Positions 49 through 34,546 of a stretch of 64,000 nucleotides of DNA are shown here, one piece after another. The translations under genes were made by a program, and so were the position numbers. Numbering within the stretch: the stretch's first letter is position 1; each line of letters starts with the position of its first letter. The notes beneath the pieces were generated by a model, which saw only the letters and a program-made list of their open reading frames with translations, searched no databases and had not been told where the DNA came from. The stretch comes from Methanofollis formosanus. GTDB taxonomy: Archaea; Halobacteriota; Methanomicrobia; Methanomicrobiales; Methanofollaceae. The DNA lies in the NCBI RefSeq assembly GCF_019633745.1, contig NZ_CP037968.1, positions 1,060,789 through 1,124,788 on the forward strand. The letters are read 5' to 3'.

Positions 49-602
49 GGCTTTGTAGAATCGGGCATGAACCCTGGGCTCAAGCATACGGGATGAAAAT
101 TTTCTGAGCTGCGCTACGGCGTGTGGGCGGGATCCCAATCCTCGCGACAGGATCTTTGGAAGATCTAGTTTCATCGCCGCCCCGGTTATCCTCGTCGTGG
201 GGGGCCGGGGGCAGAGCCCCCGGCGCGAGATTGCGGGAAAGATTTGACGATTACGGGCGGCCGATCCATCAGAGAGATTTTCTATCCTCTGCGTATCGGC
301 TTCAACGGGATATGGCAAGTTCAAACTCTCATGCAAACCTGAAGAGAGGATCGTCTGGATCATTTTCATGGTAAATCGTCTTGATGGTTCTCTTCGACGG
401 GGGGCGTGCCGCCCCCCGAACCCCCCGCGCGAGCGATAGGCGGTGGACTGTAACCCCCCTTTCAGGGTCATTGCTCCGCCTTCCGCCCCAATCTTCATCC
501 AGGGGGTCCGGGGGTCTTCCCCGGCGTGAACAGGAGGGAAGGCGATGGATGAAGGTCACAGGGGGGTTGAGGTGATGAAAAGAGGATAGTTTCTACAGAG
601 CC
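49..602 (+). mobile_element. Complete MITE-like element, family 1 (554 bp)
   Basis: The ends are inverted repeats: GGCTTTGTAGAA at 49-60 and TTCTACAGAGCC at 591-602. The 8-bp direct repeat CAATTTTC lies immediately outside both ends (41-48 and 603-610), a perfect target-site duplication. Inside are a subterminal motif ending GCATACGGGATGAAAAT, a GC-rich hairpin module near 180-240, an AT-richer module near 260-370 and a second GC-rich module near 385-560. The small reading frames inside show no transposase features. Non-autonomous transposition is inferred. The 8-bp duplication fits IS6- or IS1595-type transposases, but nothing here decides between them. Confidence 0.88.
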
Positions 603-7484: not shown

Positions 7485-8602
7485 CTGGCGGGGGACGGCG
7501 AGAGCGCGTGATCCAACAGAATAATGATCGAACCACTCCTGTCCTGGTTCAATCTTCGGGATCGCGACGGCGGGGAGGTTTGGTGATCGCGTGCCGTCAC
7601 CGATCACTGAATAATATTTTCTGTCATTTCGCGAGAAGATGGGGCGAGGGACAGCACGCGGTGGTGTCCTCCTCAGAAAAATGATCGGCTCGCTCCCGTC
7701 TCACTCCTATCTTCGGAGTCACGACGACAGTACAGCGTCATGATCAGCACATGCCGTCCCCCTCATCACCGGATCTGTCCTGCCTTTTCGCGAGAAGATT
7801 GGGCGGGGGACGGCGACAGAGATCAACCTCCTCCCGTCCGGTTCTATCTTCGGGGTCATGAAACCGGGACAGCGTTGTGATCAAAATGTGCCGTCCCCGA
7901 TTACTGAATTTGTTCTGGTATTTCGCGAGAAGATCGAACGGGGGACGGCACCACGCGTGATCCTACCGAACGATGATCGGCCCGCTCCCGTCTCACTCCT
8001 ATCTTCGGGGTCACGACGACGGTACAGCGTCATGATCAGCACATGCCGTCCCCCTCTTCACCGGATCCGTCCTGCCTTTTCGCGAGAAGATTGGGCGGGG
8101 GACGGCACCACGCGTGTTCCCGATGAATAATGATCGGCCAGTTCCCGTCTCACTCCTATCTTCGGGGTCACGACGACGGTACAGCGTCACGATCAGCACA
8201 TGCCGTCCCCCTCTTCACCGGATCTGTCCTGCCTTTTCGTGAGAAGATAGGGCGGGGGACGGCTCCACGCGTGTTCCCAATGAATGATGATCGGCCTGCT
8301 CCCGTCTCACTCCTATCTTCGGGGTCACGACGACAGGGCAGTGTGATGTTCAGACCATGCCGTCCCCCTCTTCACCGGATCCGTCCTGCCTTTTCGCGAG
8401 AAGATTGGGCTGGGGACGGCACGGGGTGGCGTGGTCCTCAGGATAATGATCGGCCCGCTCCTGTCCGGGTTCTATCTTCGGGGCCATGACGACGAGAAAG
8501 GTACGATGATCCAAACATGCCGTCCCCCTCTTCACCGGATCTGTCCTGCCTTTTCGCGAGAAGATTGGGCGGGGGACGGCTCACGCGTGTTCCCGATAAA
8601 TG
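7485..8602 (+). repeat. Tandem repeat array A (seven ~155-bp units)
   Basis: Seven units start at about 7526, 7683, 7821, 7974, 8131, 8289 and 8448. Each opens with GATCGGCCCGCTCCCGTC and then has CTATCTTCGGGGTCACGACG. After that comes an 11-bp inverted pair TGCCGTCCCCC/GGGGGACGGCA around a ~42-nt loop (8044-8054 with 8097-8107 is a perfect example). The unit ends with ACGCGTGTTCCCGATGAAT. Inside the loop sits CTTTTCGCGAGAAG, an imperfect palindrome. Units 1 and 3 are most diverged. Changes keep the stem but not any reading frame. The period is far too long, and the units too alike, for CRISPR. Confidence 0.9.
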
Positions 8603-9144
8603 GGCTCTGTAGAAAACATCCTCTTTTCATCACCACAACCCCCCTGTGAACTGAATCTATCGCCTTCCCTCATGCTTATGCCGGGGGCTCCGCCCCCGGA
8701 CCCCCGGGATGAAGATTGGGGTGGAAGGCGGAGCAATGAATATGAAAGGGGGGTTGCAGTCCCCCGCCTATCGCTCGCGCGGGGGGTTCGGGGGGCGGCA
8801 AGCCCCCCGTCGAAGAGAACCATCAAGATGATTTACCATGAAAATGATCCAGAATATCCTCTCTTCATGTTTGCATGAGAGTCTGAACTCTTTATATCAC
8901 GTTGAAGCCGATACGCAGAGGATAGAAAATTCCTCTGATGGATCGGCCGCCCCCATCGTCGAGATTTCCCTGCCATCTCGCACCGGGGGAAACCCCCGGA
9001 CCCCCCACGACGAAGATAGCCAAGGGGCGGTGATGGAACGAAGTCTCCACCAGTTCTCCTGTCTTGATAAGAGAGAGAGCACGTGACGAGAAATGTTCAT
9101 CCCGTATGCTTGAGCCCGAGGCTCATGCCCGATTCTACAAAGCC
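8603..9144 (-). mobile_element. Complete MITE family 1 element inside array A (542 bp)
   Basis: The ends are GGCTCTGTAGAA (8603-8614) and TTCTACAAAGCC (9133-9144). Flanks GATAAATG (8595-8602) and GATGAATG (9145-9152) form an 8-bp target duplication with one mismatch. Removing the element and one flank restores a normal unit junction of array A (CCCGATGAAT, then ATGATCGG). The body is the reverse complement of the 49-602 copy, with the same modules in the same order. The insertion therefore postdates amplification of the array. Confidence 0.9.
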
Positions 9145-9300
9145 GATGAATGATGATCGGCCCGCTCCCGTCTCACTCCTATCCTCGGGGTCAGGAATAC
9201 AGGACGGCGTGATGATCAGAACATGGCGCCGCCCCTCATCACCGGATCTGTTCTGCTATCTCGCGAGAAGATCGGTCTGGGGCGGCATGGAGTGGTTTTC
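9145..9300 (+). repeat. Last unit of array A, displaced by the insertion
   Basis: The unit resumes with GATCGGCCCGCTCCCGTC at 9154, followed by CTATCCTCGGGGTCAGGA and TCGCGAGAAGATCGG. It then decays: the stem reads GCGCCGCCCC/GGGGCGGC instead of the GTCCCC form. It runs up to the 3' end of the converging draG-like gene. Confidence 0.8.
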
Positions 9301-9336
9301 CTGCCCGCTGCCAGATCTACGGAGCGTATCACCCCC

Positions 9337-17424: not shown

Positions 17425-18460
17425 AGTTCACTGGAGGACGGCACACCAGAGGAACACACCACCCCGTGCCGTCCCCCGTCCTATCCTCTCGCGAGACGGC
17501 AGACCAAGATCGATGATGAGGGGACGGCACATTCTGATCAGTACGCCGCCACGTTGTCATGATCCCGAAGATTGGAGCAGGACGAGAAAGGGGCGATCAT
17601 TCTTCACCAGGAACACGCGTGATGCCGTCCCCCGTCCTATCTTTTCGCGAAATACCAGAACAGATCGATGATGATGAGGGGACGGCATGGTTTGATCATG
17701 ACGCCGCCACGTTGTCATGACCCCGAAGATAGAACCGGGACGGGAAAGGGCCGATCATTCTTCACCAGGAACACGGGTGATGCCGTCCCCCTGTCCTATC
17801 TTCTTGCGAGACGACAGAACAGATTCGGTGAAGGGGGACGGCATGGTTTGATCATGACGCCGTCCCGCTTTCATGACCCCGAAGATAGAACCCGGACGGG
17901 GGATGGGCACGCTACCCCGCGCCTTTGTCACGACCCCGAAGATAGAACCGGGACGGGAAAGGGCCGATCATTCTTCAGCAGGATCACGCGCTGCGTGCCG
18001 TCCCCCACCCCATCTTCTCGCGAAATACCAGGGAAGATTGTACGACAAGGGATGGCATATTCTGAACATCACGCTGTCTCGCATTCATGACCCCGAAGAT
18101 TGGAGCGGGACGGAAAAGAGGCGATCTTTTTCAGCGGGATCACGCGCCCCGACCGCCCTCCGTACGATCTTCTCGCAAGACGGCAGAACAGATCCGGTGA
18201 TGAGGGGCGGCATGGTCTGATCATCACGCCGTCCTGGTATCATGACCCCGGGGATAGATCCGGGACGGCAGAGTGCCGATCAGTTCTCAGCGGGATCACA
18301 CTACCGCGTGCCGTCCCCCACCCTCTCCTCTCGCGAGATGGCAGAACAGATCCGGTGAAGGGGGACGGCACACTGATCATCATGCCTTCCCGTTGTCATG
18401 ACCCCGAGGATAGAAGCCGGATGGGAGAGGGACGACCTCTTTTCAGAAGATCACACCACC
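17425..18460 (-). repeat. Tandem repeat array B, inverse orientation of array A
   Basis: About seven units of the array A repeat lie here as the reverse complement. The block CATGACCCCGAAGATAGAAC recurs at roughly 17559, 17718, 17873, 17929, 18088, 18240 and 18397. Between them are the same paired arms GCCGTCCCC and GGGGACGGCA around TTCGCGARA cores. One unit (17873-17929) is truncated to about 56 bp. The sequences are more diverged from each other than in array A. I see no gene within it. cbiM begins about 200 bp after its end; 18461-18656 holds only AT-rich promoter-like sequence near 18600. Confidence 0.88.
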
Positions 18461-32063: not shown

Positions 32064-33137
32064 TCAGTCTAACTCTTTCTTTCCTGACTTCAGCTCCTCG
32101 ATCGATTCTCCTTCCTCGATCTTCTCCTCGAGCTGACGAAGGAGGATATCGACCTCCTCAGGGCTCGGGATCCCGCCGAGGATCGATTCGTCAAGGGCCT
32201 GAGCCGCCTCCGCTCCCTCCTCTTCGGGCATCTCCTCGGTCGCCCCGAGGAACTTCGCGCTCTGTTTCACCAGGCTCGAAACCTCGAACGGGAAGATGAT
32301 CTTCGTCGCCTGCCCTTCGGCCATCTGTTTGAGGGCGTCGAGCGAGAGAACCGTGATCGCCTTCTTGTCCAGCGGTCTGGACCCGAGGGAGAGGATCCGC
32401 AGCCCCTGGGCCTCGCCCTGCGCCTGCAGGATCTTCGAGAGCCGCTCGCCCTCAGCACGGAGCACCTTGCTCTGCCGGTCGCCCTCGGCCTGGAGGATCA
32501 TGGACTGCCGCTCGCCCTCGGCACGGAGAATTGCGGAACGCTTGTCACCCTCGGCACGGAGGATTGCCGCACGCCGCTCACGTTCGGCCGCGGTCTGCTC
32601 GGTCATCGCCTGCTTGACCGCACCCACCGGATCGACCTCCTTGATCTCCACCCGCTCGACCTTCACCCCCCACTGATCGGTCTCGCGGTCCAGAATGTCG
32701 CGGAGTTTGGTATTGATCAGTTCCCGGTTGTACAGGATCTCGTCGAGTTCCATGTCCCCGATGATCCCCCTCAGACTGGTCTGGGCCAGGGCGACCGTCG
32801 CCATCCCATAGTTCGAGACCTCGAAGAACGCCTTCTCAGGGTCGACCACACGAGTATACACGATCGCATCGACATTGGTCGGCGAGTTGTCCTTGGTGAT
32901 CACCTCCTGCGAGGGGACGTCCATCACCAGGGTCCTGAGGTCGAGTTTCTCTACTACGGTGATGACCGGGAAAACCCACCGGAAACCGGGATTCAATCGC
33001 CCGATATATTTCCCGAGCCGGATCTGTAATCCCTGCTCGTAAGGCTGGACAATCACGACCCCCTTGGACATGATATAGATCACGACCAGGATCAGAAAGA
33101 TCGTGATGAGATTGCTGACGATCTCTTCAAGTACCAT
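32064..33137 (-). CDS. Stomatin/prohibitin (SPFH) family membrane protein
   Basis: The 357-aa protein has one N-terminal membrane helix (SNLITIFLILVVIYIMS). The SPFH domain follows: VIVQPYEQGLQIRLGKYIGRLNPGFRWVFPV, then VDAIVYTRVVDPEKAFFEVSNYG and ERVEIKEVDPVGAVKQAM. A long coiled coil, rich in RAEGERQS-type heptads (residues ~200-265), comes next, and an acidic tail ends it. ATG 33137 is chosen because it fuses with the NfeD stop (TAATG). The stomatin-NfeD pair is conserved in archaea; the partners form membrane scaffolds, and some NfeD proteins are proteases that cut stomatin. This NfeD lacks the protease part. Confidence 0.93.
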   Translation of the reverse strand: MVLEEIVSNLITIFLILVVIYIMSKGVVIVQPYEQGLQIRLGKYIGRLNPGFRWVFPVITVVEKLDLRTLVMDVPSQEVITKDNSPTNVDAIVYTRVVDPEKAFFEVSNYGMATVALAQTSLRGIIGDMELDEILYNRELINTKLRDILDRETDQWGVKVERVEIKEVDPVGAVKQAMTEQTAAERERRAAILRAEGDKRSAILRAEGERQSMILQAEGDRQSKVLRAEGERLSKILQAQGEAQGLRILSLGSRPLDKKAITVLSLDALKQMAEGQATKIIFPFEVSSLVKQSAKFLGATEEMPEEEGAEAAQALDESILGGIPSPEEVDILLRQLEEKIEEGESIEELKSGKKELD

Positions 33138-33980: not shown

Positions 33981-34546
33981 GGCTTTGTAGAATTTTTCAT
34001 GAGGCGAGCGCCTGCCTCAAGCATACGGGATGAAAATTTCTCGTCGCTTGATCGCTCTTTTTCAAGACAGGAGTACTCGTAGAGACCTCACGCAATCGCC
34101 GCCCCCACCTATCCTCATCATGGGGGGTCCGGGAGGCAACACCTCCCGGGGCGAGATGGCAGGGAAATCTCGACGATGGGGGCGGTCGATCCATCAGAAG
34201 AATATTCTATCCTCTGCGTATCGGCTTCAAAGGGATATGGCAAGTTCAAACGCTCATGCAAACCTGAGGAGAGGATCGTCAGGATCATTTTCATAGTAAT
34301 TCACCATGAACCCGGGTTCAAGCATACGCGATGAAAATTCTCGTTGGTCTCCAGGGTGTGTGGATCCATGCTCATTCGTCGGAGCAGGGCACCACCTCGG
34401 GCCACCACCTCCTTGCCGCCCCCCGGTTATCTTCGTCGTGAGGGGTCCGGGAGGCAACACCTCCCGGCGTGATTCATAGGGAACGGCAACGGATTCGGTT
34501 CACAGGCGGTCTGGGTGGATGAAAAACGGATGATTTCTACAGAGCC
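33981..34546 (+). mobile_element. Family 1 element with both ends but no target duplication (566 bp)
   Basis: Ends are GGCTTTGTAGAA (33981) and TTCTACAGAGCC (34535-34546). The flanks (GAACCCCC and ATAAAAGC) do not match. A second left-end subterminal motif occurs inside (near 34305-34340), so this copy looks like a recombinant of two elements. The 33596-33980 part upstream has no gene that I can support; only a weak GC-rich patch near 33870 is visible. Confidence 0.75.

Follow-up and report, generated by a model that had tools for sequence, protein, structure and literature searches.

A MITE inserted into a satellite array that appears related to its own interior in Methanofollis formosanus

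Organisation of the interrupted array

The window, a stretch of 64,000 nucleotides from Methanofollis formosanus (NCBI RefSeq assembly GCF_019633745.1, contig NZ_CP037968.1, positions 1,060,789 to 1,124,788 of the forward strand), contains two arrays of the same tandemly repeated unit, here called array A and array B. Array A lies in the gap between UPF0179 and ADP-ribosylglycohydrolase, with araM next to UPF0179 on the other side, and one of its units is split by a short non-coding mobile element, a MITE. The features of the locus, with the evidence on which each was placed, are collected in Table 1.

Table 1. Repeats and insertion features in the window (positions are those of the window; TIR, terminal inverted repeat; TSD, target duplication)
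Feature	Position	Strand	Evidence
Array A, ~157-bp satellite units in tandem, MITE-interrupted	7487-9301	+	unit profile, join test
Interrupted unit, left half (model 1-84)	8518-8602	+	unit profile
Left copy of 8-bp target duplication, GATAAATG	8595-8602	+	flank reading, join test, sister-copy TSDs
MITE, 542 bp, non-coding, TIRs GGCTCTGTAGAA / TTCTACAAAGCC	8603-9144	+	101 genome matches, sister copies with 8-bp TSDs
Left TIR	8603-8614	+	same 12-mer ends a resident IS5-family IS
Internal hairpin a, GCCTTCC...GGAAGGC, GC-rich apical stem	8661-8733	+	element block ~59-131 recurs alone
Internal hairpin b, GGCCGCCCC...GAAGATAG...GGGGCGG, GC-rich apical stem	8945-9036	+	read from sequence
Right TIR	9133-9144	-	sequence reading, sister copies
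Right copy of 8-bp target duplication, GATGAATG	9145-9152	+	flank reading, join test, sister-copy TSDs
Interrupted unit, right half (model 76-153, from 9143)	9145-9220	+	unit profile
Array A last, partial unit (model 2-77)	9228-9301	+	unit profile
Array B, same satellite as array A, opposite orientation, between two genes	17451-18457	-	9 unit-profile matches
Second full-length MITE, perfect 8-bp TSD GAAAATTG	49-602	-	BLAST match and ends

The MITE family

The inserted element has the features of a MITE: TIRs, a TSD of constant length, multiple copies and no transposase gene. No ORF of 100 amino acids or more lies within 8603-9144. BLAST gave 101 matches in its own 2.97-Mb genome, and the left 20-mer of the element has 70 genome matches when up to three mismatches are allowed, whereas the reversed control has 0. 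Statistics on full-length elements were taken from the 19 near-complete copies among the 101 matches, and those on TSDs from the 11 of these with both ends, in which the 8-bp repeats agree at 8/8 positions in six copies, at 7/8 in three (the 8603-9144 copy included) and in two are absent. The family is modular, with 240-bp, 542-bp and ~930-bp forms, and its listed target octamers are ~72% AT, while the window is 61% GC. It occurs in 11 of the 12 genus genomes; outside the genus, 0 of 19 genomes from the same order contain it. Elsewhere in the window, a pair of MITE ends facing inward over a span of 566 bp (33981-34546) probably marks one more copy. At L046 (genome 1426800-1430000), several ~310-bp MITE right-half modules stand in tandem, which suggests that larger MITE units multiply too.

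The insertion scar and the rebuilt unit

A first-pass annotation of the locus had read the two flanks of the element as a target duplication. This reading is borne out by correct coordinates, a match at 7 of 8 positions, the TIRs and the sister copies with 8-bp TSDs. The chance of an 8-bp repeat at 7/8 or better is ~4e-4 with equal bases, before the TIRs and sister copies are counted. When the unit profile is followed across the MITE, model positions 76-84 are covered on both sides, and this overlap is the target duplication. In a join test, we scored 25 joins of both flanks, using a profile derived solely from the other arrays. The best join, at 130.8 bits, was the one in which the MITE and exactly one 8-bp copy are removed. 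The remaining 24 joins scored 110.8-126.7 bits, and the intact complete units of array A scored 104.3-130.6 bits with the same profile.

Deletion of the element and one flank does restore a normal unit, as the first-pass annotation had claimed; its statement that the restored junction is seen five more times in array A was too strong, since, of six other comparable junctions, half are close to the rebuilt site (identical at 49, 48 and 45 of 54 positions) and half are poor matches (35, 33 and 30). One TGATCG match lies elsewhere in a unit. A rebuilt junction strongly unlike the other units, which would speak against the reading, was looked for in array A and not found. We conclude that the MITE was inserted by transposition with duplication of 8 bp. 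The element sits where the unit, GC-rich elsewhere, is richest in AT.

A candidate source of transposase

A resident 1008-bp IS starts with GGCTCTGTAGAA and carries an exact 8-bp TSD, GAACAATC, on both sides. Its transposase scores above the cut-offs for the IS5 family (NF033579, 237 against 140 bits) and for Pfam PF01609. One subgroup of IS5, ISH1, makes duplications of 8 bp. The 1008-bp IS has what would be expected of the autonomous partner of an IS5 derivative, sharing with the MITE its 12-bp left end and the length of its TSD. A 954-bp relative of this IS is present in G009 with exact flanks CGAAAATC, and relatives of its transposase occur in 9 of the 12 genus genomes. An IS5-family transposase probably acted on the MITE in trans, and the 1008-bp IS may have supplied it; the link is circumstantial, because the IS and the MITE have only ~12 terminal bases in common.

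Two other assignments were tried and set aside. Elements of the IS1595 type make 8-bp TSDs and have ends similar to those of the MITE, but an IS1595 transposase had no match in the genome. Likewise, REP, BIME or REPIN elements were discarded as a class, no Y1 (REP-associated) transposase having been found with PF01797 in the one genome searched. In G004 (L167, L175), a transposase of 72% identity is present in three open copies, of which the two examined end in GGCTTTGTTGAA; MITE matches in G004 are short and weak only.

Dispersed arrays of the same satellite

The repeated unit of arrays A and B forms a family of at least 41 arrays in the genome, with 287 matched units covering 40.6 kb, a total that is a lower bound taken from the matches listed plus one further array (L018). 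Units lie head to tail at several loci and are non-coding, as in a satellite; each array holds 3-12 matched units, and no coding-like ORF with a score of 25 or more was found inside the 41 arrays. The satellite is nearly confined to the species, since, of 30 relatives, only three, which are members of the genus, gave matches, with one to three units per place in the stretches retrieved. Unit phase 60-89, where hairpin b ends, is the end point of 20 of the 41 arrays (p ~2e-5 under uniform phase). A tandem repeat of another period, 33 bp (a multiple of three), is found at 32441-32588 of the window, possibly in a coding region.

Kinship of the satellite unit and the MITE interior

The first-pass annotation had treated element and array as unrelated. 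We find instead that internal hairpin modules are common to both. A satellite profile built from arrays only, used with a cut-off of E<0.01, hits 9 of the 19 near-full-length MITE copies; the full set of 19, dinucleotide-shuffled 20 times, gave no hit. The strongest of these hits (E=3e-11) falls in a longer copy at L028; at the same cut-off, the 8603-9144 MITE and nine further copies of the 19 gave no hit. Hairpin types a and b align with the satellite unit in other MITE copies, and unit and modules are colinear over ~150 bp, spacer and loops included. Most MITE modules carry in each hairpin an extra GC-rich stem of ~30 nt that is absent from the satellite units. Composite forms occur in sister genomes: in G001, a MITE right end is followed by a MITE-type hairpin and then by satellite units, in phase, and in G005, MITE-type hairpins frame satellite units, again in phase. 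These comparisons argue with good confidence for common descent of the satellite and MITE modules. Since the array unit corresponds to the interior module of the MITE, the MITE at array A appears to have landed in an array of its own interior's relatives.

Element ends are also seen at array edges. With a right-end profile, and leaving aside the whole MITEs at array A and L082, an inward-facing MITE right end was found at 11 of the 41 arrays, nine of them at E<1e-6; ten lie 0-78 bp from the array and that at L087 lies 332 bp away. The other 30 arrays gave no inward right-end match beyond whole MITEs alongside, and the sole right end facing outward is that of a whole MITE next to array L018. 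With left- and short-end profiles, terminal matches pointed inward at L082, L083, L088, L114 and L077, and outward at L081 and L088, the outward ones looking like separate MITEs near the arrays. A fuzzy 12-mer test on the right side, at 10 or more matching positions, was positive inward at 11/41 arrays as against 7/41 in the outward control, which was also raised, partly because whole MITEs adjoin some arrays. At the left edge of array A, a likeness to a decayed MITE end is visible only by eye, the end profile giving no match. Inward-facing ends on both sides, together with an 8-bp repeat of at most one mismatch, were found at 0 of 41 arrays (mean of the mismatched-pair control, 0.4). We therefore discarded the idea that the arrays are intact transposons bounded by two ends and a TSD, and transposition of whole arrays is no more than a possibility. 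Of what marks a MITE-borne satellite, a unit homologous to the MITE interior is thus present, but a complete array-bearing element was found at none of the 41 arrays.

Further MITEs lie 0-66 bp from satellite arrays at L082 (genome 755900-759300), L018 and L081. At L082, the array directly adjoins a MITE copy on its left and is closed on the right by an intact MITE left end.

Common descent leaves two directions. An older satellite could have supplied hairpin modules to MITEs, and the satellite units, lacking the ~30-nt GC-rich apical stems, are possibly the simpler and older form; capture of this kind has been proposed for a Xenopus MITE (PMC12628747). The distribution of the two families points the other way: the MITE is present in 11 of 12 genus genomes and the satellite in 4 of 12, and in the stretches retrieved from genomes other than that of M. 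formosanus it is limited to one to three units per place. We regard capture as unlikely. Growth of arrays inside MITEs appears to be the better of the two directions, and it is mainly the 11/12 against 4/12 distribution that suggests it.

Order of events at the locus

The order araM, UPF0179, gap, ADP-ribosylglycohydrolase is kept in 11 of 11 genus relatives. The satellite profile found no array in the orthologous gap of any of them, with one weak 14-bit hit that sits inside the MITE-bearing gap of G003. This gap is ~1.7 kb in G003, where it contains MITE sequence, ~0.6 kb in G001, ~160 bp in G005 (the closest relative) and about 15 bp in the remaining relatives. Compared by eye, array A and the G005 gap gave no confident alignment.

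Divergence within the array bears on the same question. The interrupted unit shares ~90% identity with the sister units closest to it, a difference of ~10%, whereas private changes in the 8603-9144 MITE amount to 12 of 417 conserved columns (2.9%; range over the 19 copies, 1.0-8.1%). As rough clocks, these values suggest that the units had separated before the MITE arrived. Together with the gaps of relatives, which lack the array, they suggest that an empty gap acquired first the array and then the MITE, an order that we consider well supported. The first-pass annotation had likewise placed the array first and the jump second. Its use of the single TSD mismatch as a relative age fails, as this is one of 8 positions and TSD identity does not track divergence in the family: perfect TSDs occur at 4.4% private change, and 7/8 in a copy at 1.7%.

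Alternatively, the MITE may have entered a short array whose left side expanded later, so that only the interrupted unit and its neighbour predate the jump. The asymmetry of array A, with about seven units to the left of the MITE and one and a half partial units to its right, would fit this, and so would the mutual likeness (89%) of the left units at 8044 and 8201. However, the interrupted unit is as near to these two (90%) as they are to each other, and the distances between units exceed the private change of the MITE, so that the most recent duplications seem to predate the jump, although gene conversion could blur this comparison. Later expansion of the left side is, in our judgement, improbable.

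Other readings of the arrays

The likeness of array and MITE could be convergent or functional if both were of the common GC-rich palindrome type seen in the alternating REP and BIME repeats of bacteria. The unit does consist of two inverted hairpins, which is the build of a BIME, and its conserved stem is 97% paired over 7 pairs. Against this, the similarity of unit and MITE extends through loops and spacer in colinear order, and shuffled copies yield no hits; we consider convergence quite improbable.

As to gene context, 34 of the 41 arrays could be classified (unknown codons were scored zero, and seven arrays were left out), and they lie between 16 convergent, 17 tandem and 1 divergent gene pairs. 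One divergent pair or fewer among 34 has a probability of 7e-4 under a simple 1:2:1 expectation. Avoidance of divergent pairs would suit arrays that act as transcript ends or regulatory RNA and are kept by selection, the MITE being incidental, but we think this very unlikely: the same bias would result from promoter avoidance and from insertion at the T-rich ends of genes, a hand count in 190 units gave few compensatory changes for the main stem (9 cells over 11 pairs), and Rfam found no family at gathering score in the window besides one tRNA elsewhere. RNAalifold returned no structure for the 190 units, an outcome shared by its column-shuffled controls and therefore uninformative.

Comparison with known systems

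The element at array A resembles known MITEs from IS5-family IS in being short and non-coding, in having the termini of a resident IS and an 8-bp TSD, and in its many diverged copies; it differs in its modular interior of repeated hairpins (240 to ~930 bp) and in having ~12 bp in common with the IS. In a review of Xenopus work (PMC12628747, sections consulted), internal repeats of MITEs are described as growing into satellites from which the element ends are lost afterwards. In those sections, MITE, array and composite forms of Xstir and miDNA4 coexist, units derive from the MITE interior, and long arrays occur without element ends, all as proposed here; unlike them, the present arrays are those of an archaeon, with 3-12 matched units each, in gaps between genes. 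The same sections of the review text make no mention of prokaryotes, bacteria or archaea. In Drosophila virilis, Tetris / TIR-220 offers a second parallel, the ~220-bp internal repeats of a non-autonomous element having seeded satellite-like arrays; as far as the excerpts of PMC4079207 go, it differs in being a foldback element of a eukaryote with the repeats in its TIRs. Dispersed satellites are on record in Leptospira interrogans and in Methanocella conradii; like ours, they are non-coding and lie at several loci of a prokaryote genome, but their repeats are much shorter (37 nt in M. conradii, in a family of five), and the excerpted text of PMC6749651 gives no transposon origin for either species.

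Proposed origin of the arrays

We propose that the two-hairpin module was amplified in tandem inside MITEs, by unequal recombination or replication slippage, and that amplified modules were carried to new sites or were seeded from several MITEs, after which the outer MITE ends of the arrays would have decayed. At array A, an IS5-family transposase acting in trans would then have moved a non-autonomous MITE into an AT-rich spot of one unit in an existing array, duplicating 8 bp. Taken as a whole, this explanation, in which a MITE jumped into an existing array and satellites grew inside MITEs whose ends then decayed, seems likely to us.

A wider reading, towards which we lean slightly, is that a conversion of transposon to satellite may be under way. 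The interior of an IS5-type MITE would have given rise to at least 41 dispersed arrays in one species, the stages of MITE, composite and array without ends would coexist in this species and its sisters, and MITEs would insert into arrays already formed. We know of no earlier prokaryotic case of such a conversion, and our searches of the open-access literature listed no paper on a prokaryotic satellite derived from a MITE.

Taken by itself, the jump is an ordinary event, placed in time only relative to the array. The presence of the repeat unit inside a MITE family, in contrast, offers a testable mechanism in a small, gene-dense genome, and raises the question of whether a tandem array grows inside a transposon and then loses the transposon's ends.
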